A DNA stretch of 60,572 nt, from positions 1 through 60,572 of the forward strand of contig NZ_JAJERH010000017.1 in the NCBI RefSeq assembly GCF_016919725.2, read 5' to 3'. Below are positions 4,978 through 33,783 of this stretch, piece by piece. Within the stretch, counting starts at the first letter, position 1. Each line of letters opens with the position of its first letter. Both the position numbers and the translations under genes were made by a program. The DNA is from Virgibacillus sp. AGTR. GTDB taxonomy: Bacteria; Bacillota; Bacilli; Bacillales; Amphibacillaceae. Below the pieces are notes generated by a model, which worked only from the letters and a program-made list of their open reading frames with translations, was not told the DNA's origin and searched no databases.

Positions 4978-5340
4978 TTAGTTGTCTTTTTCATCCTCTT
5001 TGAAAGCTTCCCATATTTTCTTTAATCTTTTAAGATCTTCCTCTTTATTTTTTGGAAGTTCTCTATACCATCTTTCTAATGATGGATCGTTACGGAAAGC
5101 CTCAAAGGCTTCTTCTTCTGTCATGTGTGGTTGGTCGCTATGACCTAATAAGTAGTCTGTAGTGACATTGTATAATTTAGCTAGATTTCTTATTATATCT
5201 GGATCTGGATTTCTAGTACCGTTTTCATAACCAGATAATGTATTACTTCTTACCCCTATTTTATCTGCAACGAATTTTTGGAGATATCCGTTTTTTTCTC
5301 TTAACTCTTTAAGTCTCTTAGCAAGAATCTTATCATTCAT
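4978..5340 (-). CDS. XRE-family phage repressor (CI/ImmR-like)
   Basis: This 120-aa protein has a helix-turn-helix domain at about residues 6-62 (LKELREKNGYLQKFVADKIG, then RSNTLSGYENGTR) and an acidic helical C-terminal region of about 55 residues, the size and shape of ImmR-type repressors. The ATG at 5340 has AAAGG 9 nt upstream; a longer version starting at 5361 lacks a site and would overlap the promoter. It is transcribed away from the Cro-like gene at 5497, and four copies of an ATCGCA-type operator fill the gap. It should keep both early promoters controlled and be inactivated through the ImmA-like protease. Confidence 0.9.
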   Translation of the reverse strand: MNDKILAKRLKELREKNGYLQKFVADKIGVRSNTLSGYENGTRNPDPDIIRNLAKLYNVTTDYLLGHSDQPHMTEEEAFEAFRNDPSLERWYRELPKNKEEDLKRLKKIWEAFKEDEKDN

Positions 5341-26905: not shown

Positions 26906-27805
26906 ATGCCAAATGCTATTAACTATGCACAAAAGTATCAAACTGAATTAGACCAAGTAATTAAGCAAGCTACACTAACAAATGACCTTGAAACACCAAG
27001 TGTGAATTGGATGGGGGCAAGAACTTTCCATGTTCCTTCTCTAGCTGTTTCTGGGTACAAACAGCATAGCCGTAATGGTGGATTTAACCGAGGTTCCGTT
27101 AATGTAACTCATGAACCATATACACTACAATTTGATCGTGATGTAGAATTTTTTGTTGATCAAATGGATGTAGACGAGTCTAATCAAGCAGCGAGTGCAG
27201 CTAACGTAACTAGAGTTTTTCTAAATGAAAATGCTGGTCCTGAAATAGATGCTTACCGTTTTTCTAAATTAGCAGCTAAAGCGAAAGATGTTGGTCAGGA
27301 TACGGCTGAAAATGTAACTGAAGGCACACCAAAAGACGTATTTGATCGTTTAAAGGCGGATATTAAAAAAGTTCGTAAATACGGAACCGCTAACCTCAAG
27401 GTCTATGTATCTACAGATGTAATGGATGCTGTGGAATCTTATAAAGAGGGGAAAGGTAACTTCTCATTACAGAATGAAAATACAAACATTGAAACAAGAG
27501 TAACAGTTATAGATGGTGTAAAACTTATAGAAGTATTCGATGTAGATCGTTTTCATACTGCATTTGATTTTACAGATGGTTTTGTTCCAGCAGTAGATGC
27601 ACAACAATTGAATTGGATAATTGTTTATCGTGGAGCTGTTATTGCAAAAGCAAAGCTAAATTCCGTTTATTTATTTCAACCAGGTCAACATACAGAAGGC
27701 GATGGATACCTATACCAAAATCGTTTGTATCATGATCTGTTCGTACTAAAAAATCAAGCTAAGGGTGTAGTTGTATCCAATAAAGCACCTGATACAGGCG
27801 CATAA
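26906..27805 (+). CDS. Major capsid protein
   Basis: The 299-aa protein assembles the head. It follows the scaffold and matches A118-like capsid proteins in pattern: INYAQKYQTELDQVIKQATL at the N-terminus, KLNSVYLFQPGQHTEGDGYL and YQNRLYHDLFVLKNQAKGV near the end. An HK97-type fold is expected from the family. Unlike the scaffold it lacks the LNLQFFA motif. GGAGATGATAAC precedes the ATG. Confidence 0.92.
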   Translation: MPNAINYAQKYQTELDQVIKQATLTNDLETPSVNWMGARTFHVPSLAVSGYKQHSRNGGFNRGSVNVTHEPYTLQFDRDVEFFVDQMDVDESNQAASAANVTRVFLNENAGPEIDAYRFSKLAAKAKDVGQDTAENVTEGTPKDVFDRLKADIKKVRKYGTANLKVYVSTDVMDAVESYKEGKGNFSLQNENTNIETRVTVIDGVKLIEVFDVDRFHTAFDFTDGFVPAVDAQQLNWIIVYRGAVIAKAKLNSVYLFQPGQHTEGDGYLYQNRLYHDLFVLKNQAKGVVVSNKAPDTGA

Positions 27806-29595: not shown

Positions 29596-29606
29596 GGAGG
29601 ATGAAC

Positions 29607-30050
29607 ATGCCAGAAGGATTCTTATTAAATTCAAAATACAAGATGGAAATTAATATAACGCCTAATGAAGAAACGGAAACATGGGGAAGGTTAGCTAAAG
29701 GTATCACTAGTATGGAGCCAGATCCAAACGAAGAGACTTCTCAGGATAATTATTATGATGGGGATGGTTACGGAGAAACTGATGTTATTGGTGCACAACT
29801 CATTAGTTCATTTTCAGGTCATCGCTATTATGGTGATCCAGCGCAAGACTACATCTATTCAAAGGTGCTTGAAATAGGACCAGCGAGGCGTACCGATTAC
29901 CGTTTAACTTTACCAGATGGATCCACTTTCGAAGGACCATGCACCATAGCAAATATTGTTGGACCCGGTGGGGATGCCATGGCAAAAGGTGAGATTTCAT
30001 TCGAGATACATTTTGCTGGTAAGCCACAATACACAGCGCCTACTCCCTAA
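29607..30050 (+). CDS. Major tail tube protein (short form, 147 aa)
   Basis: The 147-aa product is beta-rich (SKYKMEINITPNEETETWGR, VLEIGPARRTDYRLTLPDGS, GEISFEIHFAGKPQYTAPTP) and lies where the tail tube gene is expected. The ATG at 29607 is chosen since AAGGAGG lies 6 nt upstream; an ATG two codons earlier touches the site. The stop TAA follows CCC, forming a +1 frameshift site that leads into a fibronectin type III domain encoded at 30049-30300, giving a long form of about 230 aa. Confidence 0.9.
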   Translation: MPEGFLLNSKYKMEINITPNEETETWGRLAKGITSMEPDPNEETSQDNYYDGDGYGETDVIGAQLISSFSGHRYYGDPAQDYIYSKVLEIGPARRTDYRLTLPDGSTFEGPCTIANIVGPGGDAMAKGEISFEIHFAGKPQYTAPTP

Positions 30051-30132
30051 GGCGCCCACTAGCCTTTTAGCTTCCAATGAAACAGATACGAGTGTTGATC
30101 TAAATTGGAATGCCGCTGAGGGTGCTAGTGGG
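30045..30132 (+). promoter_or_regulatory. +1 programmed ribosomal frameshift signal
   Basis: The zero frame ends ACT CCC TAA (30042-30050). A proline tRNA on CCC can slip one base to CCT, after which AAG opens the +1 frame. Four bases on, CCCACTAGC (30055-30063) pairs perfectly with GCTAGTGGG (30124-30132), a 9-bp stimulator stem. Listeria phage PSA uses the same type of proline +1 slip in its capsid and tail genes. Confidence 0.8.
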
Positions 30133-30300
30133 TATAACGTATATCAAGATGGTGCAAAAATTGACACTGCATCCATAAATAGCTATTCGGTATCCGGGCT
30201 AACAACAGCTACCAACTATGCATTTTATGTAACAGCAATAAATGATAAATATGGTACTGAATCCGATCCGTCAACTGTTGTAAATGTAACTACATTATAA
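30049..30300 (+). CDS. Fibronectin type III extension of the tail tube protein (frameshift product)
   Basis: The +1 frame adds 83 residues: KAPTSLLASNETDTSVDLNW, then NAAEGASGYNVYQDGAKI, SYSVSGLTTATNYAFYVTAI and SDPSTVVNVTTL. This is a classic FN3 domain, with the Trp, Tyr and Leu positions of the fold in place. The frame has no ribosome binding site of its own, so it must be made by frameshifting as a minority decoration on the tail tube. FN3 and Ig-like domains on phage structural proteins are thought to bind cell surface sugars weakly. Confidence 0.85.
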   Translation, partial: KAPTSLLASNETDTSVDLNWNAAEGASGYNVYQDGAKIDTASINSYSVSGLTTATNYAFYVTAINDKYGTESDPSTVVNVTTL

Positions 30301-30342: not shown

Positions 30343-30738
30343 ATGAAGGAAATAGGTATTCAAAGAGCGATAGAAGAAGTTTCAATTGATGGAACAGTTT
30401 ATGAAATAGATACCTCAGATGATAAAAGAAAGAAGTATGCGGAATTAGCTTCCAGATTAAATAAATTAGGGGATGAAATAGAAACACAAGCAAAGCAAAA
30501 TGATGAAAAAGTGCTGGTAGAAGCATTGGAAAAGGTAAAAGAAGAAACAAAACTAATTACAAACGAGGTTATTGGAGAAGGTGCTTTTGAAGATATATAT
30601 CCAAAAACCAATAATTCCACAGAGCATACTATTGGTGTAGTCTCTGATGTTCTTCAATATATCAAGATAAAACAAGACGAACGACAGAAACAGCATTTTG
30701 AGAAAAAGCGCTCTAAATACACCAAAAAGAAGAAGTAA
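30343..30738 (+). CDS. Tail assembly chaperone (131 aa)
   Basis: A helical, charged protein (GIQRAIEEVSIDGTVYEIDT at the N-terminus, basic KKRSKYTKKKK at the end) lies between tail tube and tape measure, the invariable chaperone position. GGGAGG lies 7 nt before the ATG. The next gene is in the same frame only two codons after the TAA, so the usual -1 frameshift arrangement is absent. Confidence 0.8.
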   Translation: MKEIGIQRAIEEVSIDGTVYEIDTSDDKRKKYAELASRLNKLGDEIETQAKQNDEKVLVEALEKVKEETKLITNEVIGEGAFEDIYPKTNNSTEHTIGVVSDVLQYIKIKQDERQKQHFEKKRSKYTKKKK

Positions 30739-30744
30739 GAACCT

Positions 30745-31392
30745 ATGTTTTTAACGGAGCAATTAAAAGATACATGCACTTATCAAGGTATACAACTGGA
30801 ATTAGATTTAACTTTCGATAACATTCTTTTTTTCTTAGAAATGCTGAAAGATAAAGAGCTACACATTATAGAAAAGATTCTAATAGGATTAGAGATGCTT
30901 ATTGAAAACTTTGAAGATATAGAGAACCTAGCTTTAGAAGAAAAAATTGATTTATATATATATATTTTAGAAAATGAGCTTGATTTTGTAAGGAAAGATC
31001 AAAATGATCAAGAAAATCAAGGCTTGAAGGATGATACGCAAGAACAAGAGGAACAAGAAGATAAAGATTATGATTTTAATGTTGACGGGGAGCGTATTTA
31101 CGCTTCTTTTTTAATGGATTATGGCATTGATTTACTTGAACAACAAGGAAAGATGCATTGGAAAAAATTCATGTCTTTATTTAGTGGGTTAAGCGAGAAA
31201 ACGCCTTTCATGCAAGTTGTTCAAATAAGAACAATGGATGTTCCTTCTCCTAGTAAAGATAACCAGAAAGAGCGTAATAAAATTTTAAGTCTTAAACGGA
31301 AATACGCACTTGAACAAAACACTGGTAAAACAGCAGATGAAGCGTTTGAGAATATAATTACAGCCTTCGGAGGAAAGGCAGGTGGTAAATAA
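30745..31392 (+). CDS. Bacteriophage Gp15 family protein (second tail chaperone)
   Basis: The 215-aa product has the Gp15 family pattern: LELDLTFDNILFFLEMLKDK near the N-terminus and DGERIYASFLMDYGIDLLEQ then MHWKKFMSLFSGLSEKTPFM in the centre (about residues 111-152), with an acidic Gln/Glu insert before it. It is the partner of the upstream chaperone in A118-type phages. No strong ribosome site is visible, so coupling to the upstream gene is likely. Confidence 0.88.
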   Translation: MFLTEQLKDTCTYQGIQLELDLTFDNILFFLEMLKDKELHIIEKILIGLEMLIENFEDIENLALEEKIDLYIYILENELDFVRKDQNDQENQGLKDDTQEQEEQEDKDYDFNVDGERIYASFLMDYGIDLLEQQGKMHWKKFMSLFSGLSEKTPFMQVVQIRTMDVPSPSKDNQKERNKILSLKRKYALEQNTGKTADEAFENIITAFGGKAGGK

Positions 31393-33783
31393 ATGGCAGA
31401 CGGTTCTATTACGATAGATACGAAAATAGATCAAAAGGGTGCTGAACAAGGTGTTGGTACGCTACAAAAAAACTTGAATGGTACTGCTAAGAAGATGAAA
31501 AAAGTTGGCGGACAAATGTCGAAGTACGTTACTGCGCCAATGGCAGCACTAGGAACAGCTTCTATTGTAGCAGCTGACACAGTAGACAAAGCGTATAACA
31601 ATATTATCGTTGGTACAGGTGCGACAGGTGACAAATTAGATAGTCTTAAATCTAGTTTTGATAATGTCTTTAAAAATGTGTCTAATAGTGCGGATGAGGT
31701 TTCTAATGCTATCTCTAACTTAAATACATTAACAGGTGCAACTGGTCCAGTTTTAGAGGACTTAACCAAAAATGTATTAGACGCTTCAAGAACGCTTGGT
31801 GAAGATGGGGTCGCTAACTCAGAAGCTTTTGGTAAAGCAATGGGGCAGTGGCAAATACCTGCTGAAAACGGAGTGTCTGAATTAGATAAGTTATATAAAA
31901 TGACGCAGGATTATGGAGTTGGTCTAGATCAGATAACTGGCCATTTAAATACTTATGGATCCGTACTAAAAAATGCAGGCTTTAACATGACGGAATCAGC
32001 AGATTTAATGGCAAGATTGGAAGCCAATGGTATTTCTGTCTCTAGGGTTATGCCTGGTCTAAATAAAGCTTTTAGAACATGGGCAGGTGAGGGAAAGAAC
32101 TCAAGAAAAGAGTTCGAAAAAGTAGCTACTAAAATGAAAGAAGCTGAAACAGAAACAGAAGCCCTTGCAATAGCTACTGAAGCGTTTGGCGCTGAGGGTG
32201 CACAACGTATGACAACAGCAATAAGAAATGGCGCTATACCTTCACTTGATGAACTAGGGAAAGGGTTTGAAGATGCTGGTGGATTAATACAGGATACTTC
32301 AGATGAAACAAAAACAATTGGTGAAAGATTTCAAGAATTAAAAAACACTGCAACGATTGCTTTAAAACCTTTAGGTAATGTATTGCTTGATATAGCTGAA
32401 AAATGGCTTCCACCGTTAATTAATGGGGTAACGAAACTTGCAACCTGGTTTAATAATTTATCACCAACAACTCAAAAATTAGTAGTAGTATTAGGAGCGG
32501 TGGCTGCGGCTATTGGTCCTCTTTTATTAGTGCTTGGTAGTTTAATGTCTGCCCTTCCAGCAATTATTCCAATGATTAAAGGAGTAGGTGCAGCATTTCG
32601 TTTTATGACAGGTCCTGTAGGATTAATTATAAATCTAGTAGCATTATTAGCTATATTTGTGGTTACCCATTGGGAACAAATAAAAGCAGTGACAATTACA
32701 GTTTTCACAGCCATATGGAGCTTCCTACAATCTACATGGAACATCATTGTCGAGGTAGTAAAAGTAGCTGTACAAGGCATATGGGGTACGATACAAGCCA
32801 TTTGGACCATGATCAAAACAACTACTGTTACTATATTTACAGGTATATGGACATTCCTGCAAGCAACTTGGAATGTAATTTGGACAGTAATTAAAACTGT
32901 GGCACAGGGAATCTGGGGAACGATTCAAGCGGTGTGGAATATGATTAAGACCACCACGCAAGCGGTATGGAATGCGATAAAAGTAGTCATTTCAACTGTG
33001 TGGAATATAATCAAATCAATTGTTAAAGGCGCAATAAATGTTGTGAAAACAGTTATAACAACTGTGTGGAATACAATTAAAACAGTAACAAGTGCAGTGT
33101 GGAATGGCATCAAAAAAGTGATATCTAGTGTCTGGAACGGAATAAAGTCCGTAGTTTCTAGTGGTATCAACTTAGTTAAATCTATTGTTACTAGTGTGTG
33201 GAATGCTATTAAAAGCGTTACTTCTTCTGTATGGAATGGAGTTAAGGATACAGTAGGAGGATTTATTGATACTATCTGGGGTACAGTTAAAAGAGTATTC
33301 GGTAAAATTAAAGACTTTATTGGTGATGCTTGGGATGGAGTGAAAAGTGGTACTGATGACGTTTGGGATGGAATAACTGGATCCATAAAAGGTGCAATTA
33401 ATGGAGTTATCGGAGCTATTAATGGAATGATAGATGCTCTAAATGGTCTTCACATAAACTTACCTAAAATTCCCGACTGGGTTCCTGGTTTAGGTGGAAA
33501 AGGCGGGGGTTCAATTAGCTTTCCTGATATACCTAAAATCCCGAGCCTTGATGTTGGTACAAACTTTGTTGCTAAAGATGGACTAGCTATGATTCATAAA
33601 GGTGAGGCTGTCGTACCTAAGAAATATAATCCTGCTCTCGGTAATGGTGGCGGAAAGAAAACGGATCTACACATTGCATTAATTGTTGATGGAGAAGAAT
33701 TAACAAGGATTGTAGAGCCTAATATAGATACATCAATGGGAGACAAACTAACACTTAATGCGTATTTGCGGGGGGATAGATAA
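31393..33783 (+). CDS. Tail tape measure protein (796 aa)
   Basis: This protein sets tail length and helps DNA entry. The N-terminal part has a TMP-type domain (about residues 40-330, with LGEDGVANSEAFGKAMGQWQ). Two hydrophobic segments follow (about 350-420). Residues about 430-650 are 11-residue repeats of the form VWNxIKxxxxx with regularly spaced Trp. The C-terminus holds KIPSLDVGTNFV and MIHKGEAVVP, the motif that also occurs alone in the 38-aa gene at 24825. By the usual ratio of about 1.5 A per residue the tail would be near 120 nm. The stop overlaps the next start. Confidence 0.95.
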   Translation: MADGSITIDTKIDQKGAEQGVGTLQKNLNGTAKKMKKVGGQMSKYVTAPMAALGTASIVAADTVDKAYNNIIVGTGATGDKLDSLKSSFDNVFKNVSNSADEVSNAISNLNTLTGATGPVLEDLTKNVLDASRTLGEDGVANSEAFGKAMGQWQIPAENGVSELDKLYKMTQDYGVGLDQITGHLNTYGSVLKNAGFNMTESADLMARLEANGISVSRVMPGLNKAFRTWAGEGKNSRKEFEKVATKMKEAETETEALAIATEAFGAEGAQRMTTAIRNGAIPSLDELGKGFEDAGGLIQDTSDETKTIGERFQELKNTATIALKPLGNVLLDIAEKWLPPLINGVTKLATWFNNLSPTTQKLVVVLGAVAAAIGPLLLVLGSLMSALPAIIPMIKGVGAAFRFMTGPVGLIINLVALLAIFVVTHWEQIKAVTITVFTAIWSFLQSTWNIIVEVVKVAVQGIWGTIQAIWTMIKTTTVTIFTGIWTFLQATWNVIWTVIKTVAQGIWGTIQAVWNMIKTTTQAVWNAIKVVISTVWNIIKSIVKGAINVVKTVITTVWNTIKTVTSAVWNGIKKVISSVWNGIKSVVSSGINLVKSIVTSVWNAIKSVTSSVWNGVKDTVGGFIDTIWGTVKRVFGKIKDFIGDAWDGVKSGTDDVWDGITGSIKGAINGVIGAINGMIDALNGLHINLPKIPDWVPGLGGKGGGSISFPDIPKIPSLDVGTNFVAKDGLAMIHKGEAVVPKKYNPALGNGGGKKTDLHIALIVDGEELTRIVEPNIDTSMGDKLTLNAYLRGDR

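Follow-up and report, generated by a model that had tools for sequence, protein, structure and literature searches.

A predicted +1 frameshift at CCC-TAA in a Virgibacillus prophage tail tube gene, and a covarying RNA stem in its FN3 extension

The tail tube gene of a prophage in Virgibacillus sp. AGTR very probably makes some copies of its product with an extra surface domain, by means of a one-base slip at the stop codon, and an RNA stem lying just after the slip site probably helps this slip; both statements come from sequence comparison. The slip itself repeats that of phage SPP1 and counts as one more example of that type of frameshift. What is added here is the stem, which covaries, is present in other CCC-stop phages and is lacking in ordinary FN3 domains, together with its occurrence on unrelated structural genes and its chaining. 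We consider the explanation as a whole, a two-way decoding in which an SPP1-type +1 shift is combined with a stimulatory stem borne by the FN3 coding sequence, to be very likely. For the prophage in the window, by which we mean the whole stretch of 60,572 nucleotides that was analysed, we infer the occurrence and rate of the shift, the stimulation by the stem and a surface-contact function for FN3.

The tail tube gene and its +1 frame

The Virgibacillus sp. AGTR genome is a draft of 215 contigs, and the prophage in the window is of the siphophage type. Its gene order is that of Listeria phage A500, with a major head protein (26906-27805), the tail tube ORF (29601-30050, plus strand), a PHROG 1061 protein (30343-30738), Gp15 (30745-31392) and a tape-measure-like protein (31393-33783). 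The zero-frame product of the tube ORF has 149 aa and belongs to PHROG 820 (major tail protein, E 5.6e-50); it had no match in Pfam, and the tube profile retrieved nothing convincing from the PDB sequences (best E 0.074). The PHROG 1061 protein, which has a ZapA match under the Pfam cut-off, occupies the position of the A500 tail chaperone. A lambda-type G/GT chaperone -1 frameshift was rejected as a candidate, as the shift in the window is +1 and lies in the tube gene; at the end of the gene in the chaperone position there was only a 28-codon -1 frame.

The 3' end of the tube ORF reads ACT CCC TAA, with CCC at 30045-30047 and TAA at 30048-30050 of the plus strand. At this putative slip site (30045-30050), which is a reading of the sequence and is kept in relatives, CCC would re-pair with CCT one base forward. 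From the CCT at 30046, the +1 frame (30046-30300, plus strand) reads PKAPTSLLASNETDTSV...NVTTL, giving 83 residues beyond the shared proline before a stop at 30298-30300, and it matches the Pfam fn3 family (PF00041; E 1.5e-11; 44.8 bits, cut-off 25). The preliminary description had claimed that the tube frame ends in CCC TAA and that a +1 slip leads to an 83-residue FN3 domain, and this is borne out by the ORF reading and the PF00041 match. The CCCTAA hexamer occurs at chance level in the window (21 on both strands, with 23.7 expected), and of the 71 ORFs that span 120 codons or more between stops, the tube ORF alone finishes in a CCC-stop. A +1 shift at the CCC-stop that would add FN3 in this prophage is supported by comparison with relatives.

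We then compared relatives drawn from viral contigs, from two named genomes (Virgibacillus subterraneus and Alkalibacillus almallahensis) and from other genomes of the same family, order and class. A profile used in part of these searches was made from seven tubes, all with the extension, so the searches run with it are biased towards carriers. There were 101 distinct tube ends, 98 of which were kept; the other three, found by the pattern scan or the FN3 query alone, were left out. The tube end, the frame and the extension recur in relatives whose tubes are as little as about 37% identical. A +1 extension that begins P[NKDE]xP was found at 19 of 19 CCC-stop ends (13 TAA and 6 TGA) compared to 0 of the 79 others (Fisher p 1e-20, a value that ignores relatedness and a rule that was picked post hoc from the table), and 22 of these 79 finish in CCT, CCA or CCG without a +1 extension. 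The extensions at the 19 CCC-stop ends comprised 11 FN3 domains and 8 short, mostly acidic sequences. The acidic ones follow TGA in L024, L025, L026, L029 and L326 and TAA in L247, L256 and L257, and a hairpin lies 3-4 nt past the stop in all of these except L247. Among all FN3 shift sites, 36 of 37 used TAA and one TGA, a ratio that is influenced by the scan for the TAA pattern. On viral contigs, a scan for the corresponding TGA pattern yielded no added FN3 shift site among the matches listed; FN3 shift sites may use TGA too.

CCC is rare in these genes, accounting for 45 of 745 proline codons ahead of the last codon, a count taken from the tube ORFs only and not from the host genome. In the tRNA search, 150 of 318 candidates were scored, leading to 41 places; in the stretches scanned around them, tRNA-Pro had the anticodon UGG only and no tRNA-Pro(GGG) was found, although one could have been missed given the draft genome and the unscored candidates. 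A rare CCC, with tRNA-Pro(UGG) as the one tRNA-Pro detected, fits slippage of tRNA-Pro at a rare CCC before the stop, which is the mechanism given for SPP1 in the accessible text of PMC6316719.

Three other origins of the FN3 frame were weighed against a +1 ribosomal slip. The domain could be made separately from its own start, or never be made, and the annotators of Ray17 and A500 do list it as its own gene. However, ATG, GTG and TTG codons are all missing from the FN3 frame in the window (30046-30300), which leaves fusion by recoding as the straightforward route, and every CCC-stop tube end opens into a +1 extension; we regard separate production as very improbable. The long form could instead arise by stop readthrough, by a -2 slip, which arrives in the same frame as a +1 slip, or by transcriptional slippage. 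Yet zero-frame readthrough past the tube TAA adds only GAH before the next stop, and it is CCC in particular that is conserved, in preference to CCT, CCA or CCG. Three bases of C make a short run for slippage by a polymerase, which counts against the transcriptional route. We regard this group of explanations as highly improbable too. A separate FN3 start, readthrough and a -2 slip were accordingly rejected. A sequencing error or a decayed gene, with FN3 once in frame and one base now wrong, has in its favour that a frame break at a C run in a draft genome could be a mistake. The same CCC-TAA break, however, recurs in relatives that come from different genomes and viral contigs, and phage records annotate joined genes there; we find this scarcely credible, as it is already contradicted by independent relatives.

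The stem beyond the stop codon

Four spacer bases after the TAA, the 5' arm of the stem, CCCACTAGC (30055-30063, plus strand), lies in the first FN3 codons, and after 60 nt it is followed by the 3' arm, GCTAGTGGG (30124-30132, plus strand), in the FN3 codons for Ala-Ser-Gly. The 9-bp pairing is present as claimed in the preliminary description, but the structure is bigger than described there: the nine pairs close a long predicted hairpin (30054-30133, plus strand), with a conserved base and looser inner helices. The predicted fold of positions 30040-30140 has an energy of -36.4 kcal/mol compared to -23.9 (sd 3.4) for dinucleotide shuffles (z -3.66), and none of 200 shuffles equalled it. In 300 synonymous recodings of the window sequence, a 9-bp helix never occurred at the position of the stem, and the fold z against synonymous recoding was -4.8.

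To follow the stem among relatives, we aligned 13 of the 37 FN3 shift sites, namely those with equal arm spacing. All 91 cells of the seven stem pairs tested were paired in these 13 sequences, and the three variable pairs showed matched double substitutions only (GC 8 / AU 5; UA 6 / CG 5 / AU 2; CG 9 / UA 4), with 16 cells changed on both sides. None of 500 shuffles attained the observed percentage of paired cells, the count of cells with double changes or the covariation score. For the tally of pairs showing a double change and that of pair types, 299 and 500 of the 500 shuffles, respectively, did as well, so both measures are uninformative. When the arm registers were slid by 1 to 3 columns, at most 54% of the cells were paired. 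The arm changes alter amino acids on both arms, with Thr-Ser and Ser-Gly in some sequences versus Val-Asn and Asp-Gly in others, and the four arm types correspond to 4 changes on a tree made without the arms, in which 4 of 11 inner branches are well supported. RNAalifold added inner helices with some covariation, but also with broken pairs, so the base of the hairpin is its firm part. These comparisons support the view that the stem would be a selected RNA element, kept by compensatory change. The alignment of relatives, which had been suggested as a check, found CCC-TAA kept alongside the extension and the stem kept with it.

To assess the association of the stem with the shift, we set the 37 FN3 sites that have a CCC-stop against 43 control FN3 domains, almost all of which lie in frame within longer proteins. 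Of the 40 sites flagged at the outset, three sat in long in-frame proteins and joined the controls; from the 42 remaining rows, L393 and L411 were kept out of the controls and L398, in which FN3 is out of frame, was retained, a choice that works against a link between stem and shift. At the start of the FN3 coding sequence, the mean fold z against synonymous recoding, with codon weights pooled from both sets, was -2.03 for the shift sites and -0.12 for the controls (p 1.5e-9), and the duplex energy of the arm region was -17.1 compared to -8.5 kcal/mol (Mann-Whitney p 2e-11), P values that, like those of the tube-end comparisons, ignore relatedness. Many single sequences were not significant against synonymous recoding (for instance L020, z -0.85, p(E) 0.57). 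These controls indicate that a strong fold is no general trait of FN3 coding sequence. Among the tube ends, a helix anchored 3-5 nt past the stop with a score of at least 10 was found in 17 of 19 CCC-stop ends compared to 19 of the 79 others (p 1.3e-7), and terminators or similar structures may lie behind the anchored helices of some of the latter. The two exceptions were L242 and L247, and in L247 no convincing stem was found.

Two further arrangements were noted. In three FN3 carriers, L393, L398 and L411, the domain is out of frame without a CCC-stop; in L398 (Listeria phage LWP01) a strong hairpin of -36.9 kcal/mol lies at this junction, near position 1201. In addition, the tubes of L023, L027, L028, L030 and L031 end in GGG GAG and a stop and have a conserved 21-residue -1 frame of the TSPEVVSVNPTTSGATVDLE type, which looks like the beginning of an FN3 domain; CCCC/GGGG arms lie past the stop (folds made for L028, L030 and L031). 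These could possibly be a -1 version of the FN3 shift.

Other structural genes and chained sites

The combination of CCC-TAA, FN3 and stem was found on tail proteins of PHROG 820 (the window), 88 (L093), 117 (L112) and 238 (L272, L392 and L421), and on head proteins of PHROG 247 (L036) and PHROG 10 (L420). A CCC-stop site by our rule was present in 7 of the 11 phage records inspected (A500, 268TH003, 000TH010, EG103P3, 049ML003, 268TH008 and Ray17), and no such site was found by the same rule in 035JT001, LM 4-14-1, LWP01 and UTI-EfS7. In Enterococcus phage EG103P3 (L396), the gene for a head protein of PHROG 544 ends in CCC TAA at 1200, its +1 FN3 frame stops after 22 residues and a separate Ig-like protein is annotated downstream; given this early end, we do not include it among the carriers.

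Chained sites were seen in L036, L421, L422 and L423, whose first FN3 again closes with CCC TAA and is followed, after a further +1 step, by another FN3. The two sites lie at 1244 and 1500 in both L421 and L422 (minus-strand positions), at 4998 and 5254 in L036 (minus-strand positions) and at 1244 and 1500 on the plus strand in L423, and the fold past the second site is weaker. As the FN3 sequences of L036 and L423 are identical, the chained examples may represent three distinct cases. To judge from these sequences, one gene in such prophages could give three products.

We lean towards the view that the FN3 coding sequence is a portable +1 cassette, in which the stem and CCC-UAA would together set the decorated share, and which has reached at least four tail and two capsid families and is sometimes chained. 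If this is true, a chained gene would make three tail-protein sizes, and the chained form would be a natural setting in which to examine the multiplication of shift rates.

Proposed decoding and comparison with known systems

In the decoding that we propose, most ribosomes would stop at TAA and give the 149-aa tube protein, and a minority would pause when the rare CCC, bound by tRNA-Pro, occupies the P site and the stop codon has entered the A site. The paused ribosomes would slip by +1, from CCC to CCU, and continue through FN3 to yield a tube subunit with a surface domain. The hairpin starts 4 nt past the stop; its 5' arm falls within the first FN3 codons, and the 3' arm follows some 60 nt later. 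With CCC in the P site, this hairpin would lie close to the mRNA entrance, leading to a larger share of slips, and FN3 and stem would travel together.

The main rival accepts that the +1 shift is real and holds that CCC and a slow stop suffice, the stem being otherwise used, for mRNA stability or to slow the ribosome for FN3 folding, or being a by-product. As far as the accessible texts go, the shifts in the SPP1 and Listeria tail genes are described without a stem, which may therefore be dispensable: a rare codon and a stop alone explain SPP1 (PMC6316719), the pseudoknot of PSA belongs to the capsid gene and not to the tail-gene shift, which sits just before the stop codon (PMC5009743), and the A500 helix is weak. 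Against this, the stem starts a few nt past the stop in most CCC-stop ends, whether the extension is FN3 or acidic, and it covaries and is absent as a general trait of FN3 coding sequence; we consider a stem without a part in the shift unlikely. If the stem does stimulate the slip, a case so far put down to a rare codon and a stop would gain a defined RNA element, and the share of decorated subunits would be a property encoded within the domain. A stimulatory stem could further account in part for the ability of such domains to become established out of frame on unrelated proteins, as they would carry the means of their own expression.

The closest known system is SPP1, in which, according to the accessible text of PMC6316719, gp17.1* arises by a +1 shift at CCCUAA that adds FN3. 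The window resembles it in the use of a tail tube gene, in the rare CCC re-pairing to CCU before UAA, in the +1 direction and in the FN3 domain, which has 83 residues here compared to 87 aa for the FN3-type extension of SPP1 (PMC6316719, PMC8718954, as available). As SPP1 uses CCCUAA, TAA is no novelty, and the suggestion that it was a new feature of the present site fails. SPP1 virions are described as containing both tube forms in a 3:1 ratio, and even for SPP1 the surface-contact function of FN3 is a proposal, in what is accessible of PMC8718954. Unlike the tested B. subtilis phage tubes with the SPP1-type arrangement, which belong to PHROG 238, the window tube belongs to PHROG 820. In 268TH003, 049ML003 and Ray17, which were taken as SPP1-like, a stem lies 2 nt past the stop. 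A stem at the SPP1 site is unmentioned in the accessible portions of PMC6316719, PMC8718954, PMC5009743, PMC6669499 and PMC10885494, and chained shifts are likewise unmentioned in the literature searched; both are weak absences, as subscription papers lay mostly outside its scope.

The tsh genes of Listeria phages PSA, A118 and A500 use a proline +1 slip at CCC_UGA, according to the accessible part of the review PMC5009743, in agreement with the earlier remark that PSA uses the same kind of slip. Besides this slip, the window shares the gene order with A500, whose tube is homologous (32% identity). In contrast to the TAA and FN3 of the window, however, Listeria tsh has UGA and a different Ig-like extension, and A500 shows only a weak anchored helix at the place of the stem.

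Fraser et al. (2006) reportedly described Ig-like domains added onto phage structural proteins by frameshift. In the 936-group lactococcal phages, TpeX is a longer major tail protein made via a programmed frameshift, in which the shift lies after an adhesin domain and the extension is another one (PMC6669499, accessible text); the window resembles TpeX in the longer major tail protein and differs from it in that the TpeX shift follows an adhesin domain. More generally, Ig-like domains are presented as an optional surface domain on abundant proteins that moves between genes and frames (PMC5009743, in the part available). Unlike frameshifted Ig-like domains in general, the FN3 coding sequence in the window appears to bring its own RNA stem.
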